Assembly: GCA_017307505.1 (NCBI GenBank)
Contig: JAFKEE010000030.1
Location: 124,001 to 188,000, forward strand
Source: Acidobacteriota bacterium
GTDB lineage: Bacteria; Acidobacteriota; Terriglobia; Bryobacterales; Bryobacteraceae
Length of the DNA: 64,000 bases
Reading direction: 5' to 3'
Part shown: positions 52,140 to 55,039 of the stretch, in pieces
How the letters are laid out: every line of letters begins with the position of its first letter
Position numbering within the stretch: position 1 is the first letter of the stretch
Notes under the pieces: model-generated
What the model was told of the DNA's origin: nothing
Database searches by the model: none
What the model saw: only the letters and a program-made list of their open reading frames with translations
Translations under genes and position numbers: made by a program

Positions 52140-52571
52140 TTAGTTCGTTGGATCCGTATCTTCCAGTGCCGGGTCCCGCAAATCCAGTTTCATGGGGCGT
52201 TGACAACATTGGCAGTTACCCGGTGTCCAGGCACGGATGGAGCAGATCTCGCACCAATAGGTGACCATCAGCCGCTTACCTCCGCTCCAGGCGAAGAGCG
52301 CCTTCTTGTAGATCGGATCGGCTTCGAACTGCGCTGGTCCCGTAAAGTGCCCCATCGCTTCGAAATCGGCATCTTTGAGCCGCTGGTCGCGCAGGACGCC
52401 CAAAGTGGCCGCGTCGCCGCTCACGTCGATCGATTTACCTTCGCGGGTGATGATTCCAGGCTTGGAGTCTTCCCCCTGGCGCAGGCGCCCCCTGAGGGGA
52501 ATACTCTGTTCGGCGGCCATCATCCGGAATGGCAGCAAAGTGGTTGCCAGAAGAAGTCCGCGGCGCGTCAT
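52140..52571 (-). CDS. Small exported Cys-rich protein resembling a heavy-metal-binding domain
   Basis: 143 residues. The start MTRRGLLLATTLLPFRMMA looks like a twin-arginine or Sec signal, so the protein is exported. The C-terminus YWCEICSIRAWTPGNCQCCQ has Cys107, 110, 120, 122 and 123 in the spacing of the heavy-metal-binding domains YxCPMHP...PGxCPxCGMxL, with the His and Met replaced. The middle (about 25-100) is unknown. ATG 52571 shares one base with the stop of the ATPase gene (TGATG), so the two are translationally coupled. Probably a metal-binding partner of that protein; no homology search could be run. Confidence 0.65.
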   Translation of the reverse strand: MTRRGLLLATTLLPFRMMAAEQSIPLRGRLRQGEDSKPGIITREGKSIDVSGDAATLGVLRDQRLKDADFEAMGHFTGPAQFEADPIYKKALFAWSGGKRLMVTYWCEICSIRAWTPGNCQCCQRPMKLDLRDPALEDTDPTN

Positions 52572-54586
52572 CAACCAGTTGGATGCGTTTTGCTTCGCAA
52601 GAGTCGCAGGCCGTTGAGCGTAACCACGAAAGTTGCGCCCATATCCGCCGCCACTGCCATCCACAGCGTGGCCATTCCGGCCATGGCAGCCGCCAGGAAC
52701 AGCACCTTCGCCCCTAAAGCGAAGAGAATGTTACCCCGGATCACCCGCAGGGTGCGCCGCGCGTGGTCCACCAGAAAAACAAGCCGCCCCAGATCATTCG
52801 TCATCAGGACGCCGTCAGCCGTCTCGCGCGCCATGTCCGCGCCCTGGCTGCCCATCGTGATGCCCAGGCTGGCCTCGGCAAGCGCCTCCGCGTCCGTGAG
52901 CCCGTCCGCCACCATGCCGACATGGCCGTAAAGACGCCGCAGGTCCTGCACTCGCGCCGCCTTCTCCATCGGGTATAGATCGGCTTCCACCTCGCTGATG
53001 CCCGCGGCCGACGCCGCGTCCCAGCCGGCCTGGCACGGGTCGCCGGTCAGTACGAGGACCCTCTCCAAGCCGCGCTGCTTCAACTTCTGGAGGACCTCAC
53101 CGGCGCCGGCGCGCCGGGCGTCACAATACGCTTCGAGCACGACAGAACCCGCCTCTTCCCGCACAGCCGCGGTCCACCCCTTGCCGGCGATCTGCTCGAC
53201 ACTCCGCAGCACACTACCGCGCGCTCCGGACTCGCTCAAGGTTCGCGGGGTCAAGGGCCAGTCCACACCCTGCTCCCCTTTCCAGGCCTGCCAGTTCCGG
53301 ATCTCCTCGATCTCCGGCTCGCTCAGCACCCGTTGATCCGCCAGTTCCGGAACACCACGCGTCAGCACCCCGGCCCGTCCCAATACCAGCACACGCATCC
53401 GCGCCGCTTCCTCCAGGAACGTTCCGCCTTTCAGCAGCACCCCCTGCTTCGCCGCGCACGTCAGGGCCGCCACAATCGACACTGGAGTTGAGATGACCAG
53501 CGCACACGGGCAGGCAATCAGCAGGACAACCATGCCCTGGTAGAACCACTCGCTCCAGCCTCCGCCCTTCCACAAGGGAGGCAGCGTGCTGATGCAGAAG
53601 GCCAGCAGCAGAACAGTGGGCGTGTAATAGCGTGTGAACCGCTCGACAATCTGCTCGCTCGGCGCCCGTCTCGAGTGCGATTCCTCCACCATGCGGATCA
53701 TTCGAGCCAGGGTGCTGTCCGAGGCTTCCCGGCTGGTTTCCACCTCCAGCGTGCCGCTCTCGTTGATCGTGCCCGCGAAGACCTCCTCGCCGGCATGCTT
53801 CTCCACCGCCACCGACTCCCCGGTAATCAGTGCCTGGTTCACGAACGAGACGCCCGCCACAATCCTGCCGTCCGCCGGGATCCGTTCGCCCGGGCGGACC
53901 CGCACCCTGGCGCCGACGCCAACCGTCTCTACCGCCACCCGGTGTTCATGACTCCCGTGGATGACCGAAGCTTCCGGCGGGGCTACCGACAGCAGGCGCG
54001 CAATCGCATCCCGTGCGCGAACCATGCTCCAATGCTCCATCCGCCCGGCCAGCGCAAACAGGAACGAAAGGGTGGCCGCCTCAGTCCATTCACCCAGAAC
54101 GCTGGCGCCCACCACGGAGAGCACCACCAGCAGATTCATGTCTGCCCGGAGTCCGCGCAGTGCCGCCCACGCCTTGGGCAGCGCCGGGATCACGCCCGCG
54201 CAGATTGCAGCCCAGAACAGCAGTTGGACGGCCAGCGGCAGCGCATGCCCGGAATGCTCGTGCACCAGAATTGCGTGCACCAGGTCGCCCGATTGCCACG
54301 CCTCTACGCCCATGCCGGCAGCCAGTGCCAGCCCGCTAGCCCAGGTGAATAGCAATGAACTATCGAGCCTTCGTTGTTTCCTGTCGCCCGCCTGGCCGGC
54401 TCGCACCCACTTCTCACAGCGCATCCCAATCGAGGCCACGGCTGCTTCGATCTCTTCTGCCGATGTCTTCTCCGCCGAGTACTCCACATCCATACGGGCC
54501 TGGACCACGTCAAAGCGCAGGTCCCGCACACCATTCACCCGGCTGAGCCGCGAGCGGAGCAGCGATACCTCCTGCGCGCAGTCCAT
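52571..54586 (-). CDS. P1B-type (ZntA-like) metal ATPase lacking the phosphorylation Asp
   Basis: 671 residues from ATG 54586. Order: an HMA domain with DCAQE (CxxE type), helices with the CPC motif (359-361), A-domain with GERIPADG and TGES (255-258), P/N-domain, and last helices with Lys627 and Asp648 where ZntA has Lys693 and Asp714. The phosphorylation motif DKTGTLT is GRAGVLT at 403-409, TGDN is TGDP, NDAP is TDAE, the HP motif is missing and the N-domain is short. The family name says Zn/Cd/Pb export, but this protein cannot form an aspartyl-phosphate. The frame is open for 11 more codons whose sequence (KTAHFRVHG) belongs to the HMA domain, with AUU 54619 as a possible start. The Cys-rich gene follows. 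Confidence 0.9.
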   Translation of the reverse strand: MDCAQEVSLLRSRLSRVNGVRDLRFDVVQARMDVEYSAEKTSAEEIEAAVASIGMRCEKWVRAGQAGDRKQRRLDSSLLFTWASGLALAAGMGVEAWQSGDLVHAILVHEHSGHALPLAVQLLFWAAICAGVIPALPKAWAALRGLRADMNLLVVLSVVGASVLGEWTEAATLSFLFALAGRMEHWSMVRARDAIARLLSVAPPEASVIHGSHEHRVAVETVGVGARVRVRPGERIPADGRIVAGVSFVNQALITGESVAVEKHAGEEVFAGTINESGTLEVETSREASDSTLARMIRMVEESHSRRAPSEQIVERFTRYYTPTVLLLAFCISTLPPLWKGGGWSEWFYQGMVVLLIACPCALVISTPVSIVAALTCAAKQGVLLKGGTFLEEAARMRVLVLGRAGVLTRGVPELADQRVLSEPEIEEIRNWQAWKGEQGVDWPLTPRTLSESGARGSVLRSVEQIAGKGWTAAVREEAGSVVLEAYCDARRAGAGEVLQKLKQRGLERVLVLTGDPCQAGWDAASAAGISEVEADLYPMEKAARVQDLRRLYGHVGMVADGLTDAEALAEASLGITMGSQGADMARETADGVLMTNDLGRLVFLVDHARRTLRVIRGNILFALGAKVLFLAAAMAGMATLWMAVAADMGATFVVTLNGLRLLRSKTHPTG

Positions 54587-54613
54587 CCCGTGGACTCGAA
54601 AGTGGGCTGTTTT

Positions 54614-54639
54614 GTTAATGAGAATCTATCCTCAATAAC
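54614..54639. promoter_or_regulatory. Imperfect 26-bp palindrome, candidate operator
   Basis: GTTAATGAGAAT (left) and ATCCTCAATAAC (right) around a CT centre match their complement at 20 of 26 positions. It lies between the divergent ATPase and His-rich genes and overlaps the probable Shine-Dalgarno of the ATPase. AATGAGAAT-type half-sites resemble Fur/Zur boxes. A minus-strand -10-like TACAAT adjoins it (54640-54645). Confidence 0.5.
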
Positions 54640-54691: not shown

Positions 54692-55039
54692 ATGGCAGCG
54701 CATAAGATCCACGGCAATCATTCGCATGTGCACGGCGAGGATTGCGGGCACACCGCCATCCGTCACGCGGGGCACGTCGACTACTTGCACGATGGCTGCC
54801 TGCACACCGCGCACGGCGACCATTTTGACGAGTGCCGTATTCAGGTTTCAGATGCGAACCCGGATGGATGCACGCCAGGCCACGCCTGCACCGGGCACGC
54901 GCCTGGGCACCAGCATGGGGAAGGGTGCGGACATGAGCCCGTACCCCACGGCGATCATGTGGACTATCTGGTCGACGGTCACCTGCACCACCCGCACGGA
55001 TCACACTGCGATGATCACGGCGCCGTCGAGCTCACCTGA
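54692..55039 (+). CDS. Small His/Cys-rich metal-binding protein with internal duplication
   Basis: 115 residues, 25 of them His and 7 Cys, with no signal peptide. Two copies of one unit, residues 14-48 (HGEDCGHTAIRHAGHVDYL...) and 75-109 (HGEGCGHEPVPHGDHVDYL...), are joined by a linker with further His/Cys. It probably binds zinc, nickel, cobalt or copper as a cytosolic buffer or chaperone; similar His-rich small proteins accompany metal transport genes elsewhere. GAGGG precedes ATG 54692. It is divergent from the ATPase and converges on the Crp-type gene with 6 bases between stops. Confidence 0.8.
   Translation: MAAHKIHGNHSHVHGEDCGHTAIRHAGHVDYLHDGCLHTAHGDHFDECRIQVSDANPDGCTPGHACTGHAPGHQHGEGCGHEPVPHGDHVDYLVDGHLHHPHGSHCDDHGAVELT

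Follow-up and report, generated by a model that had tools for sequence, protein, structure and literature searches.

The defining feature of P-type ATPases is phosphorylation of the aspartate in their DKTGT motif, and a gene that encodes such a protein with glycine at that site raises the question of what remains when the motor is gone. The gene lies on the minus strand at 52571 to 54619 of a 64,000-nucleotide stretch from an Acidobacteriota bacterium of the Bryobacteraceae (GCA_017307505.1, contig JAFKEE010000030.1, positions 124,001 to 188,000 of the forward strand; hereafter "the window", meaning this whole stretch, in whose coordinates all features are given). A first-pass annotation had proposed a P1B-type ATPase that is a pseudo-pump, selected and not decayed, with its metal pathway intact. 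The frame is open and encodes 682 residues if read from an ATT at 54619, or 671 if read from the first ATG, at 54586, and its protein is one of 14 orthologues from two related genera (9 and 5 genomes), all with open frames. Across these genomes the catalytic and ATP-binding motifs have been lost in place and the remainder of the protein is conserved; the pseudo-pump probably handles metal without ATP.

By domain content, the window protein is recognizable as a heavy-metal pump. Pfam assigns an HMA domain, an E1-E2_ATPase domain and a partial hydrolase domain, and the score against the NCBIfam cadmium family TIGR01512 is 406.5 bits, against a curated cut-off of 313.5. The closest solved structure by sequence is the zinc pump 4umv, and alignment to it places E180, C370, C372, position 414, K638 and D659 at ZntA positions 202, 392, 394, 436, 693 and 714, which we take to be functional residues of that enzyme; the counterparts of E180 and K638 presumably serve metal release on the far side. 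Position 414, the site of the phosphorylated aspartate, is glycine. The features of the protein are as follows, with counts for the 14 pseudo-pumps and for 29 active relatives (the subfamily rows of our tree minus the 14 and one further protein, G013, with seven outgroup rows excluded).

52571 to 54619, minus strand: P1B-2-like pseudo-ATPase, from the frame, Pfam and NCBIfam
54410 to 54619, minus strand: N-terminal HMA domain (PF00403) with GMDCAQE, a CxxE metal motif; C14 and E17 in 14/14 pseudo-pumps and 29/29 active relatives
54080 to 54082, minus strand: E180, aligned with ZntA E202 in helix M2 (4umv alignment); invariant
53942 to 53959, minus strand: histidine cluster HGSHEH of the A domain (H221, H224, H226); 14/14 pseudo-pumps, 28/29 active relatives
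53813 to 53824, minus strand: TGES of the A domain, retained; TGE in 14/14 pseudo-pumps and 29/29 active relatives
53504 to 53512, minus strand: CPC metal motif of M4 (ZntA 392-394); 14/14
53360 to 53380, minus strand: GRAGVLT replacing DKTGTLT, phosphorylatable Asp to Gly (codons GGA CGG GCC GGG GTG CTG ACG)
53105 to 53353, minus strand: shortened remnant of the nucleotide-binding (N) domain, without its SEHP and GxG parts and with new W443, W446, T457, P458 and C499
53036 to 53047, minus strand: TGDP replacing TGDN; P528 in the 12 longer pseudo-pumps and both HGEG members, 0/29 active relatives
52886 to 52906, minus strand: DGLTDAE, with the Asn of GDGxND gone and both Asp retained; D572 and D576 in 14/14, the Asn in 0/14
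52706 to 52708, minus strand: K638, the M5 lysine (ZntA K693); 14/14
52643 to 52645, minus strand: D659, the M6 aspartate (ZntA D714); 14/14

These features bear out most of what the first-pass annotation had read from the letters. GRAGVLT stands where DKTGTLT is expected, in the codons it gave; TGDN is TGDP; and no HP motif occurs in the window protein, whose nucleotide domain is short as claimed, with 99 residues between the P motif and TGD versus 131 to 142 in the active relatives. The GDGxND of active pumps reads ADGLTDAE. The reported change of NDAP to TDAE is present, but NDAE and NDAQ are common in active relatives, so only the loss of the asparagine is special. The elements said to be kept (CPC, the TGE of TGES, the HMA CxxE, and the lysine and aspartate of the last helices) are kept in all 14 members. 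The HxxHEH cluster of the A domain, a possible extra metal site, is specific to the subfamily, being absent from the paralogues L002 and L003.

Among the proteins compared, loss of the phosphorylation motif is confined to a small group. Proteins were drawn from 61 genomes, from 237 genomes of the family and from a scan of named genomes (80 of 115 loci kept); partial or weak loci (L009-L011, L013-L020 and L120) and nine exact copies were set aside before the comparison, and seven further exact copies (L132-L138) before the tree. DKTG is present in 92 of the 102 distinct proteins compared, and those without it are nine members of the window's genus together with G013; a second genus of the same family adds five orthologues, G184-G188. 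None of the 14 pseudo-pumps has DKTG, GDGxND or HP, compared with 29, 29 and 26 of the 29 active relatives, respectively. The altered P motif falls into the classes GRAG (3 members), DRQG (4), HGEG (2), DRAG (3), DRHG (1) and DRSG (1), such that the aspartate is retained as DR[Q/A/H/S]G in nine members and is glycine or histidine in five.

The nucleotide-binding domain is reduced in every member, and the HP helix and the GxG stretch are missing from the alignment of all 14. The 12 longer proteins lack the domain's SEHP helix and GxG part and have in common a new linker containing two tryptophans and a TP pair. G001 and G002, the two HGEG members, have had the whole N domain and some of the phosphorylation (P) domain excised, yet the frame stays open at 571 aa, with 63% identity to the window protein. 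Among the matches listed from a profile search of 257 genomes of the order, only these 14 end near the P motif; up to four candidates in each genome were scored and matches at E<=1e-150 were listed, so that weaker cases may be missed.

Conservation is distributed unevenly along the protein. There are 109 positions invariant in the 29 active relatives (residues 71-84 and 677-682 left out), and the pseudo-pumps keep 69 of the 80 that lie outside residues 396-612 and 10 of the 29 inside. The metal-path residues C370, C372, E180, K638 and D659 are present in 14 of 14. The 12 longer members share thirteen invariant positions that recur in at most one-fifth of the active relatives; nine of these are in the headpiece, where W443, W446, T457, P458, C499 and P528 are new invariant residues of the remnant. 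The ratio of nonsynonymous to synonymous substitution (dN/dS; Nei-Gojobori, own script) is 0.064 to 0.194 in eight pseudo-pump pairs versus 0.103 to 0.221 in seven active pairs; pairs share rows and one active pair is of the ZntA-like paralogue, and the values are rough because dS is often about 1. The headpiece remnant is constrained as well (P1+N dN/dS, 0.05 to 0.29), and the A domain is among the parts with the lowest dN/dS in most pseudo-pump pairs. Within the altered motif itself, LGRAGVLT is identical in the three GRAG genomes, with synonymous changes in five of its eight codons.

The window protein is no artefact, and it is not a decaying copy. Sequencing error and the oddity of a single strain are ruled out by 14 genomes with open frames, since the altered motif recurs in all of them. 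A relative with a normal motif does occur at this locus (G205), but the change itself is found in 14 genomes, and the open orthologues, their synteny, the dN/dS values and the difference between headpiece and membrane parts all support the proposal of a pseudo-pump under selection with its metal pathway retained.

The genomic setting shows where the loss took place. The nearest neighbours of the pump gene in the window are these.

52140 to 52571, minus strand: F9, a small signal-peptide-like protein with CxxC...CxCC, with a start codon that shares one base with the pump stop
54692 to 55039, plus strand: F13, a His-rich 115-aa protein, divergent neighbour

F9 lies directly 3' of the pump at 16 syntenic loci, namely, those of the 14 pseudo-pumps, G013 and G205. 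A recurrence of altered motifs beside the same neighbours had been suggested as a check, and DKTG is lost with F9 adjoining in 14 of 14. The coupling to a neighbour described earlier consists of the one-base overlap of the pump stop with the F9 ATG, as TGATG. On a crude gene map, a gene resembling an aldose epimerase (Pfam Aldose_epim) follows F9 at 13 of the 14 loci, OmpH- and BamA-like genes are present at 10, and tyrA- or aroF-like genes stand on the opposite side at 11 (the names OmpH, BamA, tyrA, aroF and trp are our own reading of the sequences); several of the missing neighbours are contig ends, and in G001, G002 and G004 the opposite side carries a long gene that we read as a peptide synthetase. 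The full arrangement recurs in G205, from a third genus, whose pump has DKTGILT, and the BamA-to-F9 side recurs in G013. With a DKTGILT relative at the same locus, the motor was therefore lost in place.

Neither neighbour is restricted to the pseudo-pumps. F9, which ends in CxxC...CxCC and has only Pfam matches below cut-off (DUF5818 and one other), was found in 152 of 257 genomes of the order, with one match per listed genome; this is far more genomes than carry the pump, leaving F9 unsupported as a dedicated partner. In several other genomes it is on another contig or distant, as judged from coordinates compared by eye and not systematically. F13 is beside 12 of the 14 pseudo-pumps and several active ones; it consists of His/Cys-rich repeats with no Pfam or NCBIfam match, and it also stands beside many P1B pumps of the subfamily and beside some from Gemmatimonadetes. 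A Crp-type gene is near only 3 of the 14 pseudo-pumps.

In the tree, the 14 group with G013 in a clade (100/99) whose neighbours are G023 and L070, the latter being the copy of the G205 protein from the named-genome scan. G013 falls inside this clade, beside the HGEG pair (93/86), and the approximately unbiased (AU) test disfavours the 14 as a clade without it (P = 0.019). This protein, from a third genus (L157, 109-2346), has DKTAALL and GDSVHD, a full N domain and a syntenic locus, and its sequence perhaps records a separate loss of activity; it sits on a long branch, and either its function was lost independently or it is misplaced in the tree. Because the motif of G013 is changed too, the site has been altered more than once in the group. 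The placement of G013 and the AU test put a single clean origin for all 14 in doubt, but the linker common to the GRAG and DRxG members points to a different branching order, which makes the sequence of losses uncertain.

Upstream of the gene lies a short leader that is shared by pseudo-pumps and active relatives.

54615 to 54635, minus strand: conserved leader TTGAGGANNNRTTCTCATTAA, with Shine-Dalgarno GAGGA and ATT start

The leader is exact in 11 of the 14 pseudo-pumps and also in G205 and G013, one base off in G004 and G184, and different in G188; a hexamer resembling TACAAT or TAGAAT stands just upstream of it in many. The codon at 54617-54619 is ATT in 13 members and ATG in one (G188), and from this pattern the pump seems to start at ATT. 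In 23 of 95 distinct frames the stretch from the upstream stop to the first HMA strand (codon -6 and up) contains no ATG, GTG or TTG; all 23 belong to this subfamily, and they have ATT or ATC at codon -10 with a Shine-Dalgarno-like stretch 5 to 10 bases upstream. A near-cognate start kept across the pump subfamily may reflect translational control. A metal regulon built on the palindromic leader TGAGRANNNNTYCTCA is unsupported, as the genome has only two such sites, the second of which is intergenic, upstream of a gene read as dxr. A longer leader pattern allowing up to three mismatches gave one match, and the backward control was likewise single (1 forward, 1 reverse).

Most hosts show no other Zn-type pump at the threshold used. 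Apart from the pseudo-pump, the matches to TIGR01525 (E<=1e-60) in the 13 other hosts, all of which were read for motifs, are copper-type by their M5/M6 motifs, KdpB-like or Zn-type, with Zn-type pumps only in G008 and G186; one G184 frame is cut, and the M4 context that is visible is as in the copper-type pumps. The window's genome, G000, has two active Zn-type pumps, L002 and L003. At this threshold, a second Zn-type P1B pump was not found in 11 of the 14 hosts, including G005, G006 and G187, which are assembled in 1 to 3 contigs and 100% complete; the G001 genome is only 78% complete. The earlier suggestion that the protein is a partner of another pump is thus weak if a second Zn-type P1B pump is meant. 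All eight genomes checked, of which seven are hosts, encode exporters of the cation diffusion facilitator (CDF) family, which means that zinc could be exported without the pseudo-pump gene. G000 has 11 TIGR01525 matches at E<=1e-60, compared with 1 to 5 in the 16 other genomes searched. It also contains L013 (1483-2475, minus strand), half a P-type ATPase of 330 aa that comprises a P/N domain and the last two helices, with DKTSTLT; this frame adjoins what we read as an RND-like fragment and looks like a truncated remnant.

Confident AlphaFold2 models (52 sequences) of the window protein (pLDDT, 88.1; predicted template modelling [pTM] score, 0.84) and of the N-less G002 protein (pLDDT, 87.4; pTM, 0.83) both match P1B ATPases best. 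TM-scores are 0.63 to 0.76 against structures titled E1 or uptake and D1027A ATP7B versus 0.43 to 0.51 against E2-titled ones, a comparison that covers these two models alone and is not taken to indicate a resting state. Compared with the ZntA-type P1B-2 Zn/Cd/Pb ATPases (4umv and 4umw), the pseudo-pumps have the same HMA, A and P domains, CPC, M2 glutamate, M5 lysine, M6 aspartate and TGE; they differ in that the phosphorylatable aspartate is gone in 5 of 14 and DKTG in all 14, and in that the N domain is halved or absent. With the active Acidobacterial subfamily, of which G205 is an example, they share locus, leader, ATT start and A-domain HEH, as well as the neighbours F9, F13, F1 and the OmpH-like and BamA-like genes; unlike them, G205 has DKTGILT, SGDN, GDGVND and SEHP.

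No description of a bacterial P1B pseudo-ATPase family was found in the open-licence papers searched. Among P-type folds whose catalytic motifs are damaged, human TMEM94/ERMA comes closest as a precedent; it likewise has a noncanonical P motif (DKQGIL), an altered GDGxND and doubtful ATP chemistry; unlike the pseudo-pumps, it is a eukaryotic, ten-helix protein with a reported link to Mg2+, a large N-like domain and a retained aspartate. TGES, present in the window protein, is absent in TMEM94 (PMC12134183). One report describes ATP-dependent Mg uptake by ERMA that needs the aspartate of DKQGIL (PMC13322241), and another study detected neither ATPase activity nor a nucleotide in the proposed site (PMC12134183). 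A review asks whether eukaryotic P1B pumps are transceptors (PMC10654040).

As a whole, these observations are probably best explained by a vertically inherited, ATP-independent pseudo-ATPase whose metal path is under purifying selection, and of the pseudo-ATPase part of that explanation we are highly confident. On this view, a Zn/Cd/Co-type P1B pump of the ordinary kind, fixed at its locus, ceased in two related genera to bind ATP and to be phosphorylated on aspartate and retained its metal path (HMA cysteine, A-domain histidine cluster, M4 CPC, M2 glutamate, M5 lysine and M6 aspartate) together with the TGE of the A domain. Such a protein would still bind a transition metal, and its switching between cytoplasm-facing and outward-facing forms would persist, driven by metal binding and the metal gradient and not by ATP. 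The normal cycle is ruled out in the GRAG and HGEG members by the loss of the aspartate and is unlikely in the others, which have lost the ATP-binding motifs. We lean, if only a little, toward a stepwise conversion, at the one locus, of an ATP-driven heavy-metal pump into a metal carrier or transceptor that needs no ATP, from DKTG to DRxG with the loss of half of the N domain and then to GRAG, with HGEG as a side branch from which the whole N domain was removed and with the metal path and the A-domain switch kept. Several facts weigh against this account. Nine of the 14 keep the aspartate and, as ERMA is reported to need its own (PMC13322241), might have some residual activity; a wholly dead P domain would hardly be expected to conserve D572 and D576 throughout (14 of 14) and K553 in every member that has the stretch (12 of 12); and 3 of the 29 active relatives have no detectable HP, so the loss of HP alone is no proof of inactivity.

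As to what an ATP-independent protein would do, a passive carrier driven by the gradient is a tentative choice, slightly favoured over a pure receptor or buffer because E180 and K638, whose counterparts in ZntA serve far-side release, and the TGE loop never vary; the retention of these exit-side residues and of the loop suggests a continuing role for switching. A metal receptor, buffer or docking platform, which would bind cytoplasmic metal, change shape and signal to or load a partner without any passage, is possible though doubtful: several possible metal sites (HMA CxxE, A-domain HxxHEH and CPC) are retained, the A domain has some of the lowest dN/dS values, the His-rich F13 adjoins 12 of 14, and the new invariant residues of the headpiece remnant suggest a new contact surface, but a receptor would have no need of invariant E180 and K638, and no dedicated partner was found, F9 being too widespread (152 of 257 genomes) and a Crp-type gene too seldom near (3 of 14). 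Pseudoenzymes often serve as regulatory subunits, and the two active Zn-type pumps L002 and L003 in the window's genome would be candidates for such control; that the protein regulates another transporter is nonetheless unlikely, Zn-type P1B paralogues having been found only in G000, G008 and G186 among the 14 hosts, even if partners of other kinds, such as CDF exporters, are possible. It is more improbable still that the protein is slowly decaying, its frame held open only by translational coupling to F9. The TGATG overlap, the three motif classes and the separately altered G013 (DKTAALL, GDSVHD), which shows the site to be prone to loss, point that way, but coupling would not hold CPC, E180, K638, D659, TGE and the HMA cysteine at 14 of 14, nor yield dN/dS of 0.064 to 0.194, nor keep LGRAGVLT constant in three genomes through synonymous changes in five of eight codons. 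Equally hard to credit is a pump that still runs on ATP through unconventional chemistry, in the nine members with an aspartate at least: DRQGIL resembles the ERMA DKQGIL, for which ATP-dependent Mg uptake needing the aspartate is reported (PMC13322241), and D572, D576 and K553 are retained, but none of the 14 has HP or the middle part of the N domain, the aspartate is Gly or His in five, two members have no N domain, and ERMA itself is disputed, with neither ATPase activity nor nucleotide at its proposed site (PMC12134183).

A high-scoring match to a P1B family need not denote an exporter, a caution raised by the window protein, which exceeds the NCBIfam cut-off. The selected clade without the DKTGT aspartate, together with a DKTG relative at the same locus, provides a series for asking what a motorless metal-binding core does, and it allows one to ask whether evolution can turn a primary pump into a passive carrier or into a sensor.

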